64,000 nt of DNA from Hellea sp. Lineage in GTDB: Bacteria > Pseudomonadota > Alphaproteobacteria > Caulobacterales > Maricaulaceae. The notes under the pieces are model-generated. The model saw nothing but the letters and a program-made list of their open reading frames with translations. It had not been told where the DNA came from and searched no databases. The position numbers and the translations under genes are program-made. Below are positions 1,207 to 29,736 of the stretch, piece by piece; position 1 is the stretch's first letter; every line of letters begins with the position of its first letter. The DNA is taken from assembly GCA_013002305.1 (NCBI GenBank), contig JABDKG010000064.1:1-64000 (forward strand). Direction: 5' to 3'.

Positions 1207-1221
1207 GAACAATGGTAGAAC
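1207..1221. promoter_or_regulatory. LexA (SOS) box of lexA
   Basis: GAAC (1207-1210), seven bases, GAAC (1218-1221): the exact complement of the alphaproteobacterial LexA direct repeat GTTC-N7-GTTC. It lies 36 bp upstream of the lexA ATG, where a repressor would block the promoter, so lexA is very probably autoregulated. An identical pattern occurs at 28319-28333. Confidence 0.88.
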
Positions 1222-1257: not shown

Positions 1258-1896
1258 ATGCTGACGGAAAAACAACGGGACTTGCTCCTACTGATTGATA
1301 AACGTGTTAAAGCGGACGGCGTGCCGCCTTCCTATGACGAAATGAAAGATCATCTGGGCCTTGCGTCAAAATCCGGCATCCACCGATTGATCACGGCTTT
1401 GGAAGAGCGCGGCTTTATCCGGCGCCTCCCCAATAAGGCGCGAGCGCTGGAGGTTCTTAAAATGCCTACGGACGGCGCAAATGTTGAGCAATTACCCGTG
1501 GCGGCAAATGACAGCGTGCAAGTGCCTTTGGTTGGCAAGATCGCGGCCGGTGTTCCGATTTCCGCAATTCAGCAAGATGGTAATATGTTCGCAGTCCCGG
1601 ACGGAATGATCGGACGGGGCGAGCATTTTGCACTCGAAGTCGAAGGCGAATCCATGATTGAGGCCGGAATTCTCGATGGTGATGTCGTGATTATCCGCAA
1701 AGCGAATACGGCGCGCAATAATGAGATTGTGGTTGCGCTCGTCGACCGCGAAGAAGCGACGCTTAAGCGGCTTCATAAGTCCGGCAATGAGATCGAACTA
1801 ATCGCGGAAAATAAGGATTTTCCAGTGCGAAAGTTCGGGCCCGATCGCGTCGAAGTGCAGGGTGTTCTCGTCGGGCTGGTCCGCCGTTATCACTAG
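1258..1896 (+). CDS. lexA: LexA SOS repressor / self-cleaving peptidase
   Basis: LexA represses DNA-damage genes until RecA filaments trigger its self-cleavage. The 212-residue protein has an N-terminal winged helix-turn-helix ([20 protein letters not shown], residues 25-44), the scissile Ala97-Gly98 in GKIAAGVP, and the S24 peptidase pair Ser132 ([13 protein letters not shown]) and Lys170 (EEATLKRL). An SOS box lies directly upstream. The stop codon overlaps the convergent DUF2459 gene by 4 bp. Confidence 0.97.
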
Positions 1897-24715: not shown

Positions 24716-27700
24716 TTATGCCGCAATCTCGGTGATTTTTTCGATAATTTTGGTTGCCTTAAGGGCTTTTTGGATGGATCTTTCCAGCCCTATAGTGTCT
24801 TTGAGACGCCAATGCGCTTCACGGCCCGGGCCGAGCGGCGCAATAACTTCGACAAACCCCATAGACTTGGACGGCACATTTTTGATTTGCTCAAAACATT
24901 GCTCCAAAGCATCGAGAGCTTCCGGCGTCGCGGTTCTTAGGCGGAGTTCAAGCCCTTTAATCTCTGTTTGACGCTCGACAACATTAAGCGAGTTAACAGA
25001 ATTGGTGAAAAGCTTAATCTCGCCGTCGCGGCGGTCCGCTTTCACAGATACCTCGATCAGCATGCCAGCCTGCAATATATCACGCTGGGTCGCGAGAATG
25101 TCTTCTCCCATGAAGACTTCATAGTCGCCTGTCATGTCAGACAGACTAACATAAGCAAAACGCTTATTGCGCTTTGACATTCTTTCCTGACGCTTCCGCA
25201 CGACGCCTGCTAACATCATGGATGTCTTACCGCGATCATAGCTTGTTTCGATATCTTCGGCTCGCACGGCGCCGCGTGCCGCGAGCGCACTATCGTAACT
25301 TTCGAGCGGGTGTCCGGAGAGGTAAAATCCAACTGCAGCGAGTTCATGATCTAGTGTCTCGATATTATTCCACGGCGCAATATCAGGCAGGTCCGGTTCG
25401 GCCATGGCTTCGGCGACATCGCCAAATAGGCTGTTTTGCGCCGATTGCCGTTCTTGGGCCGCGCGAGACCCGATAGATTGCAAGACGTTAGCCGACGCGA
25501 AGGCCTTTGCGCGATTAGCCTCGAGACAATCAAACGCCCCACTTCGCGCAAGGTTTTCAAAGGCTCTTTTATTGACAATGCGCGTATCAACTCGACGAGC
25601 AAAGTCAAACAAGTCTTTGAAAGGGCCGTCTTTTTCCCTAATTTCAACCAAATGCGCCATCGCCTCTAGACCAACATTCTTAATGGCGCCGAGCGCATAA
25701 AGAACCTTACCTCCTTCAACGTCAAAATCAGCCGTCGTCGCATTGACGCAAGGCGGCGCGATTTCAATGCCCATGCGCTTGGCTTCTTGATGAAACTGCG
25801 CCAATTTTTCGACATTATTGATGTCGAGGCTCATGATAGCGGCGATAAATTCAGTTGGGTAAAATGCTTTAAGCCATGCCGTCTGGAAAGAAATCATCGC
25901 GTAAGCGGCTGCGTGCGATTTGTTAAAACCGTAGCCGGCAAATTCATTGACGAGTTCAAAAATGTCGGACGCCGTGCCATTATCGACACCGTTTGCGACT
26001 GCACCTTCGACAAAGCGGGATTTTTGCTGATCCATTACCGCCTGGTCTTTTTTACCCATGGCGCGGCGCAGAATATCGGCCTCGCCGAGAGAGTAACCAG
26101 ACAAGACCTGGGCGATCTGCATGACCTGTTCTTGGTAAATAATGATACCGTAAGTCTCTTTCAGGATATCTTCGATCATCGGGTGGGGATATTCGATCTC
26201 AACGCGACCAAATTTTCGGTCGATATAAGTATCAATATTCTTCATCGGCCCTGGGCGATAAAGCGAGATCAACGCGGTCAGTTCTTCAATAGAATCCGGC
26301 GCCATTTTTCGAAGTGTATCGCGCATGCCTGAGCTTTCTAGCTGGAATACGCCGGCTGACAGACCCTCTGCTAAATTGACATAGGCTTCAGGCGTTGAAG
26401 TCGGGACATTTGCCAAATCAACCGTGGCGCCGCTTTTCTCGGCATATTTGATCGCGCGATAGATGACTGTCAGTGTTTTCAGGCCCAAAAAGTCAAATTT
26501 TACGAGCCCGGCCTTCTCCGCCCATTTCATTGTGAACTGGGTCGCCGGTATATCGGACCGAGGGTCTCGGTAAAGCGGAATAAGCTCAGTCAATGGCCGA
26601 TCCCCGATCACAACGCCAGCGGCGTGGGTCGAAGCGTTTCGATATAAACCTTCAAGCTGCAAGGCTATTTCAAGAAGCTGCCGGATGACCGGTTCGCTGT
26701 CTCGCATATCGCGTAAACCACGTTCCATTTTTATAGCTTCTTCAAGCGTTACCGGATTGGCCGGATTCGAAGGGATCAACTTGGCGAGCCGGTCTACCTG
26801 CCCGAGCGGGACTTGCAGAACTCGCCCGACATCGCGCACAACCGCGCGCGCCTGCAATGTCCCAAAAGTAATAATATGGGCGACCTGTTCTTCGCCATAT
26901 TTCTCCTGCACATAGCGTATAACCTCGCCCCGGCGCTCCTGACAAAAATCGACGTCAAAGTCAGGCATGGATATGCGCTCAGGATTGAGGAAGCGCTCAA
27001 ATAGAAGCCCATATCGGAGCGGATCAAGATCTGTGATTAAGAGCGCCCATGCGACAACTGAACCAGCTCCGGAACCCCGGCCCGGCCCAACCGGTATATC
27101 CTGCTCCTTCGCCCATTTGATAAAATCCGAAACAATTAGAAAATAGCCGGGAAACCCCATTTTTTCGATAACGCCAAGTTCTAGCTCCAGACGGTCAAAA
27201 TAGTCTTTTTCCGATGCCGCCAGCTCGATGGATCTAAGGCGGGCCTTAAGGCCCTCTTCCGCTTCCTGGCGTAGAATATCACCTTCACTTAGGGTTCCAT
27301 CGCCAAAATTCGGCAGGATCGGATCACGTTTTTCAGATTTAAAGGCACAACGCTTGGCGATTTCGATTGTGTTCTCCAGAGCCTCGGGAATGTCTTTAAA
27401 TAATTCGACCATCTGCTCTTCGGATTTGAAGTAATGTTGGTCAGACACTTTGCGGCGATTTTTCTCGAGTACATAACTGCCTTCGGAAATTGCCAGCAGA
27501 GCGTCATGAGCCCGGTGCATCTCCGGATCGAGAAAATAGGGTTCATTGGTAGCAACAATAGGAAGCTTTTTAGTATAGGCCCAGTCAATCAGTATTTTCT
27601 CGGCTTCAATCTCATGCTGAAGTCCGTGACGTTGTAGCTCTACATAAAGACGATTTGGATAGAGCGCCGAAAGTTCATTGAGCCAATTCTCTGCTTCGGC

Positions 27701-28171
27701 AATTCGGCCTTGACAGATTAATCGATTGAGTGCGCTTTCCGGACCGCCTGTTAAAGCAATAACCCCGTCTGTTCGTCCGTTGAGCTTAGAGCGTTTAATG
27801 TGAGGCATGTCAGTTGCTTCAACATCCAGATAGGCGGAACTGGAGAGTTCCATTAAATGCCCATATCCATTTTCGTTTTGCGCAAGAAGCGCAATCGTCC
27901 CTTCAGCTTCATGGCGGATTTGACCGGGCTGCATATCCAGTTCCAGATCAACAGATAAAGTTACCCCGATGATCGGCTGGATGCCTTTGGAGATCATACT
28001 TTCAGAAAATTCCAATGCCCCGCACATATTGTGCGTATCCGTCAGTGCGAGGGCTGGCATTTTCCACCGCGCGCAACGCTCGGCGGTCTGCCCGATCTTA
28101 AGGGCCCCTTCTAAAATAGAATAAGGTGAACGGCTCCGTAGATGGATAAATTTGGGCTGGAACCCGGCCAT
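24716..28171 (-). CDS. dnaE: DNA polymerase III alpha subunit
   Basis: DnaE is the replicative polymerase. The ATG at 28171 has GAGGGTG upstream and starts MAGFQPKFIHLRSRSPYSIL, the PHP-domain beginning. A reading from 28261 would overlap the small ORF at 28192-28284 and add unconserved residues. The 1151-residue protein carries catalytic acids in MPDFDVDFCQERRGEVIRY, the thumb/fingers block FAGYGFNKSHAAAYA, and C-terminal HhH and OB regions. It begins 20 bp after the SOS-linked small ORF, so some dnaE transcription may be LexA-responsive. Confidence 0.96.
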   Translation of the reverse strand: MAGFQPKFIHLRSRSPYSILEGALKIGQTAERCARWKMPALALTDTHNMCGALEFSESMISKGIQPIIGVTLSVDLELDMQPGQIRHEAEGTIALLAQNENGYGHLMELSSSAYLDVEATDMPHIKRSKLNGRTDGVIALTGGPESALNRLICQGRIAEAENWLNELSALYPNRLYVELQRHGLQHEIEAEKILIDWAYTKKLPIVATNEPYFLDPEMHRAHDALLAISEGSYVLEKNRRKVSDQHYFKSEEQMVELFKDIPEALENTIEIAKRCAFKSEKRDPILPNFGDGTLSEGDILRQEAEEGLKARLRSIELAASEKDYFDRLELELGVIEKMGFPGYFLIVSDFIKWAKEQDIPVGPGRGSGAGSVVAWALLITDLDPLRYGLLFERFLNPERISMPDFDVDFCQERRGEVIRYVQEKYGEEQVAHIITFGTLQARAVVRDVGRVLQVPLGQVDRLAKLIPSNPANPVTLEEAIKMERGLRDMRDSEPVIRQLLEIALQLEGLYRNASTHAAGVVIGDRPLTELIPLYRDPRSDIPATQFTMKWAEKAGLVKFDFLGLKTLTVIYRAIKYAEKSGATVDLANVPTSTPEAYVNLAEGLSAGVFQLESSGMRDTLRKMAPDSIEELTALISLYRPGPMKNIDTYIDRKFGRVEIEYPHPMIEDILKETYGIIIYQEQVMQIAQVLSGYSLGEADILRRAMGKKDQAVMDQQKSRFVEGAVANGVDNGTASDIFELVNEFAGYGFNKSHAAAYAMISFQTAWLKAFYPTEFIAAIMSLDINNVEKLAQFHQEAKRMGIEIAPPCVNATTADFDVEGGKVLYALGAIKNVGLEAMAHLVEIREKDGPFKDLFDFARRVDTRIVNKRAFENLARSGAFDCLEANRAKAFASANVLQSIGSRAAQERQSAQNSLFGDVAEAMAEPDLPDIAPWNNIETLDHELAAVGFYLSGHPLESYDSALAARGAVRAEDIETSYDRGKTSMMLAGVVRKRQERMSKRNKRFAYVSLSDMTGDYEVFMGEDILATQRDILQAGMLIEVSVKADRRDGEIKLFTNSVNSLNVVERQTEIKGLELRLRTATPEALDALEQCFEQIKNVPSKSMGFVEVIAPLGPGREAHWRLKDTIGLERSIQKALKATKIIEKITEIAA

Positions 28172-28191
28172 TTCACCCTCATATTTGGTTG

Positions 28192-28284
28192 TTATCCGCT
28201 GAGGACCATCATCCAAACTGTCATCATGGAGACGAATCCTGCGAGCACCATACCTGAGCACACATCCATTACAACTTGCCGCAT
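28192..28284 (-). CDS. 30-residue membrane protein, probable SidA-type SOS cell-division inhibitor
   Basis: This short ORF has ATG at 28284, TAA at 28194-28192 and an AGGGG ribosome site 7 bases upstream. The product has a short polar start (MRQVVMDVCSG), then one hydrophobic helix (MVLAGFVSMMTVWMMVL). A perfect LexA box lies 35 bp before the start, and dnaE begins 20 bp after the stop. In Caulobacter, SidA is a 29-residue SOS-induced inner-membrane peptide that blocks division through FtsW/FtsN. Size, hydrophobicity, SOS control and the dnaE neighbour all agree; I have not compared the sequences, so the identity is inferred. Confidence 0.7.
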   Translation of the reverse strand: MRQVVMDVCSGMVLAGFVSMMTVWMMVLSG

Positions 28285-28318
28285 TTGAAAACCCCTGAAT
28301 AAGTGTTTAATTTTATTT

Positions 28319-28333
28319 GTTCTTGTTTTGTTC
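28319..28333. promoter_or_regulatory. LexA (SOS) box upstream of the small ORF and dnaE
   Basis: GTTC (28319-28322), seven bases, GTTC (28330-28333): an exact alphaproteobacterial LexA site. It is 35 bp from the start of the minus-strand 30-codon ORF, 148 bp from dnaE and 69 bp from the plus-strand permease start. The short spacing to the small ORF makes that its most likely target. Confidence 0.85.
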
Positions 28334-28401
28334 TATCGTCTAGATCGAGCTAAGTCAAGTCGTCACTGGACTTTTTTTTAAAAACCCCGTCAAACAGCGC
28401 A

Positions 28402-29736
28402 ATGAACTACTATTCACCGCGCACCGCTACCTATCTTATAATAGCCAATATGGTCGGCGTCGGCGTTTTTACCGGCCTAGGACTTCAGCTTATAAACATA
28501 CAGGACGGGTTTCTTATTCTATTGATGTGGTTTCTCGGCGGGGTCGCAGCGCTGACCGGTGCCATGTGCTACGCAGAGCTTGGTGGCGCCCTACCGCGCT
28601 CCGGAGGTGAATATAATTTCCTCGGCCGAATATACCACCCATCGGCCGGGTTTGTTTCGGGATGGATATCGGCCACCCTGGGATTTGCCGCCCCGATTGC
28701 CGCAATCGCTATCGCTTTTGGCGCAAATCTTACGCAGGTCTTTCCAATTTCATCTGACCTCAAAAAACCTTTGGCAATCGCCCTTGTCGTGATTTGTACT
28801 TTTTTCCATACGCGCAGCCACGGTCAGAGTAGCCGTTTTCAAGACATTTTAACGATCATCAAAATTCTGCTGATATTATTCTTCGTCATTGCCGCATTGG
28901 CATTTGCTCAGAATCCTCAAACCGTGAATTTCTCACCGGCCAATGCACCTCTCGACCAAATACTAACAGCGCCATTTGCAATCGGTCTGGTCTATGTCGC
29001 TTTTGCTTATACAGGCTGGAATGCAGCCACCTATATTTTGGATGAAATGGAAAACCCGCAAAAAGACTTACCCAAAGTCCTGATCTTCGGAACTATATTC
29101 GTGACCATATTATACGTGCTATTAAATTTTGTATTTCTCAAGGTTGCGCCGATTACCGAGATGGTCGGCCTCGAAGACAAAGGCGCCGTTGCGGGCGTTG
29201 CTGCCGTTTCAGCATTTGGCCCGAAAGGCGGCGCCGCCATGACGGTAATGCTGGCTATTTTGTTCATATCGTCCGTGGGCGCCATGACACTGGCAGGCCC
29301 GCGCGCAATTCAGGAAATCGGCAAAGATCACAAATTATTCAAACCGCTTGGCAAAACCAACGCCGCTGGCCTCCCGATGCGCGCTATTGTTCTTCAGTCG
29401 GCTATTGCAATCGGATTTATCATGACTTCAACATTTGAATTTATTATGACGTTTGCAGGCGCCATGTTGGCGCTAAACAGCGCCGTAGCCGTCTTGGGCG
29501 TCATTGTCCTCAGGTTTAAAGAACCGAACCTGGAAAGACCCTATAAAAGCTGGGCATTCCCGCTTGCGCCGATTATATTTCTGACAATTACCGGCTTCTT
29601 CTTATATTTTACAGTTTTCGAGAAACCGGGACCAACGAAGATCGGACTTGCCGTAATCGCTTCGGGGTTTGTACTTTATATTATTAGTATGATTTACGAA
29701 AAATCGATCGGATCTACGCCCGATACGGGACAATAA
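28402..29736 (+). CDS. APC-superfamily amino-acid permease
   Basis: This 444-residue inner-membrane protein has about 12 hydrophobic segments. The first contains the substrate-binding IANMVGVGVFTGLG typical of APC amino-acid/polyamine transporters; AELGGALPRSGGEYNFLGRIY follows in the next loop. The substrate cannot be read from the sequence. No clear ribosome site precedes the ATG. It breaks the usual lolC-lolD-dnaE run by lying in the opposite direction between lolD and dnaE, and its last 23 bp overlap the end of lolD convergently. Confidence 0.85.
   Translation: MNYYSPRTATYLIIANMVGVGVFTGLGLQLINIQDGFLILLMWFLGGVAALTGAMCYAELGGALPRSGGEYNFLGRIYHPSAGFVSGWISATLGFAAPIAAIAIAFGANLTQVFPISSDLKKPLAIALVVICTFFHTRSHGQSSRFQDILTIIKILLILFFVIAALAFAQNPQTVNFSPANAPLDQILTAPFAIGLVYVAFAYTGWNAATYILDEMENPQKDLPKVLIFGTIFVTILYVLLNFVFLKVAPITEMVGLEDKGAVAGVAAVSAFGPKGGAAMTVMLAILFISSVGAMTLAGPRAIQEIGKDHKLFKPLGKTNAAGLPMRAIVLQSAIAIGFIMTSTFEFIMTFAGAMLALNSAVAVLGVIVLRFKEPNLERPYKSWAFPLAPIIFLTITGFFLYFTVFEKPGPTKIGLAVIASGFVLYIISMIYEKSIGSTPDTGQ

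Follow-up and report, generated by a model that had tools for sequence, protein, structure and literature searches.

SidA of Caulobacter is a 29-residue inner-membrane protein that is induced through RecA and LexA and interacts with FtsW and FtsN. It blocks division without disassembling the divisome, and a lexA deletion mutant forms filaments because of sidA (PMC4211646; PMC12700426). DidA of Caulobacter crescentus is likewise a small, damage-induced membrane inhibitor of division that acts on the FtsW/I/N complex, but it has 71 residues, lies at another locus and is SOS-independent, being controlled by DriD (PMC4211646). In Gram-positive bacteria, late division is inhibited by the SOS-induced membrane proteins YneA, SosA and ChiZ, which are different proteins from SidA; YneA interacts with FtsW, and low-confidence models place SidA on the opposite side of FtsW TM7 (PMC13396833). 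Finally, TisB and DinQ of Escherichia coli are short, single-helix membrane peptides under SOS control, but they are toxins and not inhibitors of the divisome.

In the literature searched, SidA is reported from Caulobacter only, and an earlier statement on its distribution may exist. Text matches to "SidA" in papers on rhizoviticin and RcGTA proved to be the Sidak statistical test. Here we describe a 30-codon ORF located directly upstream of dnaE in the window, by which we mean the whole 64,000-nucleotide stretch of Hellea sp. DNA that was analyzed. Sequence, gene order and regulatory signals together indicate that this ORF is very probably a divergent ortholog of sidA, encoding an SOS-induced inhibitor of cell division.

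The sidA-like gene and its expression signals

The ORF occupies positions 28192..28284 of the minus strand and translates as MRQVVMDVCSGMVLAGFVSMMTVWMMVLSG, followed by a stop codon. A ribosome binding site, AGGGG (28292..28296, minus strand), is present in the sequence 7 nt 5' of the ATG. On the same strand, dnaE (24716..28171), which encodes the α subunit of DNA polymerase III and shares up to 74% identity with its relatives, begins with an ATG at 28171; exactly 20 nt separate this ATG from the stop codon of the small ORF. These features agree in coordinates and sequence with the original prediction, which had proposed a 30-codon ORF preceded by AGGGG and a perfect GTTC-N7-GTTC LexA box and followed 20 nt later by dnaE. 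The divergent gene at 28402 encodes an amino-acid permease.

We read a putative promoter, not named in the original prediction, at 28330..28358 of the minus strand, composed of TTGACT (28358-28353), a 17-nt spacer and TAGAAC (28335-28330). This element is absent from the list produced by a generic, stricter sigma-70 promoter scan. Close relatives of the locus also carry TTGAC at like spacing and a -10 element that overlaps the box, and TTG[AC]C is found 24-28 nt 5' of the LexA box in 35 of 93 loci. Since the LexA box of the window starts within the -10 hexamer TAGAAC, bound LexA would block this promoter. The small ORF and dnaE are probably co-transcribed, and a dnaE promoter of its own could hardly fit upstream of dnaE except inside the small ORF. 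Because dnaE is essential and the intervening gap (28172-28191) spans only 20 nt, basal dnaE expression would have to come from leakage of the LexA-controlled promoter or from a promoter within the small ORF.

Homology to Caulobacter SidA

The peptide has the size and predicted shape of a SidA-family member, which is about 29-30 residues long with one hydrophobic helix. AlphaFold models a single helix over residues 2-29 with a mean pLDDT of 94.8, though for a short hydrophobic peptide this is weak evidence when taken alone. DidA can be ruled out as the identity of the ORF, given its 30 residues and LexA box versus about 71 residues and DriD control.

On six Caulobacteraceae ORFs lying directly before dnaE, the curated NCBIfam model NF033228 (div_inhib_SidA, cut-off 35 bits) gives scores of 54-72 bits; it gives 60 bits on Caulobacter sp. 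S45 and 20-34 bits on Brevundimonas-like ORFs in the equivalent position. Caulobacter vibrioides is the match in the set of named control genomes, where one genome lies above the cut-off. Because NF033228-positive sidA genes directly precede dnaE, the statement in the original prediction that sidA lies beside dnaE was right for the Caulobacteraceae loci examined. At E 10, NF033228 returns no match to the window protein or to the whole genome from which it comes, so that the ORF is not an equivalog by this model; nor does Pfam match the 30-residue peptide at E 10. Given the lack of a match to the curated SidA model, homology rests on intermediates, position and regulation.

Intermediates were collected by an iterative, position-blind profile search of 37,185 six-frame segments, seeded solely with NF033228-positive Caulobacteraceae sequences. 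At an inclusion threshold of 0.05, the window ORF is recruited by round 10 with an E-value of 3.3e-5; 171 matches lie before dnaE, seven are in stretches that have no dnaE match, and none is found elsewhere. With thresholds of 0.3 and 1.0 the window ORF reaches about 1e-7, and off-locus matches number at most two in any round. At the strict threshold of 0.001 the search stops short of the window ORF, with 35 pre-dnaE members. Comparison of the window clade with Caulobacteraceae SidA by hhalign gives an E-value of 2.2e-4 and a probability of 45%. The correlation between distances in SidA and distances in DnaE is only weak (Spearman 0.21; permutation maximum 0.06), a result that is no surprise with a protein of just 30 residues.

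The window ORF shares with SidA of Caulobacter crescentus its length (30 versus 29 residues), a predicted single hydrophobic helix, an upstream LexA-type box, a position directly before dnaE, an acidic residue 7, F17 and homology through intermediates. It differs in having a W24-M-M motif where the Caulobacteraceae proteins have F-V-W; the latter are without the W24 that is typical of other members. The alignment with SidA relatives that the original prediction had called for points to homology by iterative and profile comparison, though identity to Caulobacteraceae members is only 21-24% and the ORF falls outside the curated model. In a wider definition of the family, the ORF combines homology to NF033228-positive proteins with placement before dnaE and a LexA box in the putative promoter. 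These comparisons support placing it with Caulobacter SidA in one homologous family, and we take homology as established from sequence, gene order and regulation combined.

Size class, hydrophobicity and LexA control would also suit a membrane-active toxin like TisB or DinQ, a small hydrophobic peptide that depolarizes the membrane and brings on dormancy instead of inhibiting the divisome. DinQ is documented as an SOS-regulated, single-transmembrane toxic peptide (PMC3567139). We consider such a toxin improbable here, for the homology points to SidA, TisB and DinQ show no detectable homology to the window ORF, and the Pfam search at E 10 places the peptide in no toxin family. Moreover, many families keep the ORF upstream of dnaE, a constancy that is not typical of toxin loci. 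We know of no linkage of TisB or DinQ to dnaE.

Conservation and distribution in Alphaproteobacteria

Comparison with 15 close relatives reveals purifying selection at the codon level: pN/pS is 0.33 in the small ORF, where synonymous change is close to saturated; differences at codon positions 1:2:3 number 987:482:1793. Across 192 members of the family, residue 7 is acidic (Asp or Glu) in 189, F17 is present in 149 and W24 in 145.

The original prediction named conservation in relatives as one of its tests, and the ORF, box, orientation and position are indeed kept across orders. When 150 genomes of the same order were searched with a profile, 118 had a match at E ≤ 1, many of the weakest being due to chance. 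When loci of the order were examined, 84 of 90 have the match just before dnaE and 70 of 90 have an exact box. We also picked 30 genomes of the order because the profile had missed or only weakly matched them; nine carry a diverged small hydrophobic ORF, and all nine have the box. In one family of the order (f2), hardly any locus has either the small ORF or a canonical LexA box before dnaE, which is consistent with joint loss; the loci concerned are L247, L249, L251-L257, L259, L260 and L263.

Beyond the order, a profile trained only on it finds its best match in the pre-dnaE ORF at 45 of 80 named dnaE loci, including those of Bradyrhizobium, Ancylobacter and Kaistia, all of the Rhizobiales, and of Parvibaculum and Tepidicaulis, but not those of Rhodospirillales. 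No convincing ORF is seen at the Rhodospirillales dnaE loci, nor at two Rhizobium-labelled and the Devosia-labelled loci, which are few and include one with little upstream sequence. Of 199 genomes from the order to which a Bradyrhizobium-like genome belongs, 57 give a match at 0.01; the match precedes dnaE at 47 of 49 loci examined, 38 of them with an exact box. A sample of the whole class yields 33 matches in 385 genomes, partly before dnaE. We note that the translated sORF25 in the dnaE1 5'-UTR of Sinorhizobium meliloti (PMC10117765) is a possible SidA relative, yet the two Rhizobium-labelled loci showed none.

The same Sinorhizobium meliloti Ribo-seq study suggests that such translated sORFs are possible uORFs (PMC10117765), and the window ORF lies only 20 nt upstream of dnaE. 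In principle, it could act in cis alone, as a leader peptide or uORF controlling dnaE translation, and have no role in trans. Conservation of a hydrophobic helix at the level of single residues, above all the acidic residue 7 and F17, argues against this explanation, as does the variable distance to dnaE, which ranges from about 0 to 300 nt across loci. Furthermore, the Caulobacter homolog works in trans from plasmids (PMC4211646). A purely cis-acting leader is less probable still than a toxin.

The LexA box and the SOS regulon

The LexA box lies at 28319..28333 and is an exact GTTC-N7-GTTC on the plus strand; on the minus strand, which is the coding strand, it reads GAACAAAACAAGAAC (28333..28319). 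The number of such boxes is by itself no significant evidence: the window has three where 1.7 are expected, and the genome has 56, compared with 72 occurrences of a reversed control pattern. It is conservation of the box that is decisive for its more-than-chance status. An exact box in the same orientation is present at 159 of the 192 loci where a related ORF precedes dnaE, though these loci are partly redundant between collections and the counts are not independent. Scored in an 85-nt slot located 25-110 nt upstream of the ORF match, box density is 0.0112 per nt, compared with 0.000028 per nt over the rest of that strand in these loci, an enrichment of roughly 400-fold. All 11 inspected loci that have no exact box carry a box with one mismatch, often two in tandem. 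Although 30-codon ORFs are frequent and the genome has no excess of the box pattern over its reversed control, a chance ORF next to a chance LexA box has a negligible likelihood, already refuted by the purifying selection on the ORF and by the persistence of both ORF and box, in the same orientation and place, across orders.

Some loci have more than one box before the small ORF. The Bradyrhizobium-type loci feature two LexA boxes, 18 nt apart and in opposite orientation, and the Brevundimonas-type loci feature two in the same orientation (L095, L096, L097, L106, L108 and L201 represent these double arrangements).

The SOS repressor itself is encoded in the window, a point that the original prediction had not raised. 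The lexA gene (1258..1896, plus strand) matches TIGR00498 with 188 bits (cut-off 111) and has an exact LexA box upstream (1207..1221), 37 nt before its ATG. It is located about 27 kb from the sidA-like gene; lexA (CC1902) and dnaE (CC1926) of C. crescentus are likewise near one another in gene numbering (PMC1839093). Elsewhere in the genome, recA (C38:33376-34335) has a LexA box at C38:34499-34513, and ruvC also carries one. The LexA control that had been proposed for the ORF is supported by the conservation of its box together with these boxes at lexA, recA and ruvC; lexA and the sidA-like gene would belong to the same regulon.

Proposed mechanism and implications

As a sidA ortholog, the gene would be kept off by LexA occupying its box, which overlaps the -10 element. 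Following DNA damage, RecA-stimulated cleavage of LexA would release the promoter, and the 30-residue, single-helix peptide would be made and inserted in the inner membrane. There, as in Caulobacter, it may target FtsW and FtsN and hold the assembled septal synthesis complex (FtsW/FtsI/FtsN) inactive, arresting division until repair is complete. The genome contains two FtsW/RodA-type genes. The dnaE gene is probably transcribed from the same message as the small ORF.

The literature searched describes SidA in Caulobacter only, and NF033228 matched Caulobacteraceae only in this analysis. The presence of a gene with a LexA box before dnaE in many families provides a concrete candidate for an SOS division inhibitor outside this group, including in Bradyrhizobium; for that genus and others, the literature searched names no such inhibitor. 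We tentatively extend this to a broader proposal, for which we hold somewhat less than even confidence: that the LexA-controlled sidA-dnaE operon is an old and general SOS division checkpoint in much of Alphaproteobacteria, comprising the Caulobacter order, Rhizobiales such as Bradyrhizobium and Parvibaculum-like lineages. In that case the link between sidA and dnaE would be functional, with a single damage-induced message that arrests septation and raises the level of the replicative polymerase.

Simple expression and deletion experiments make this checkpoint testable. The locus also raises the question of why a peptide that arrests division is tied to the gene of the replicative polymerase. 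The most interesting point is perhaps the possibility that dnaE rises jointly with sidA, so that cells responding to DNA damage may halt septation and increase their replicative polymerase at the same time.
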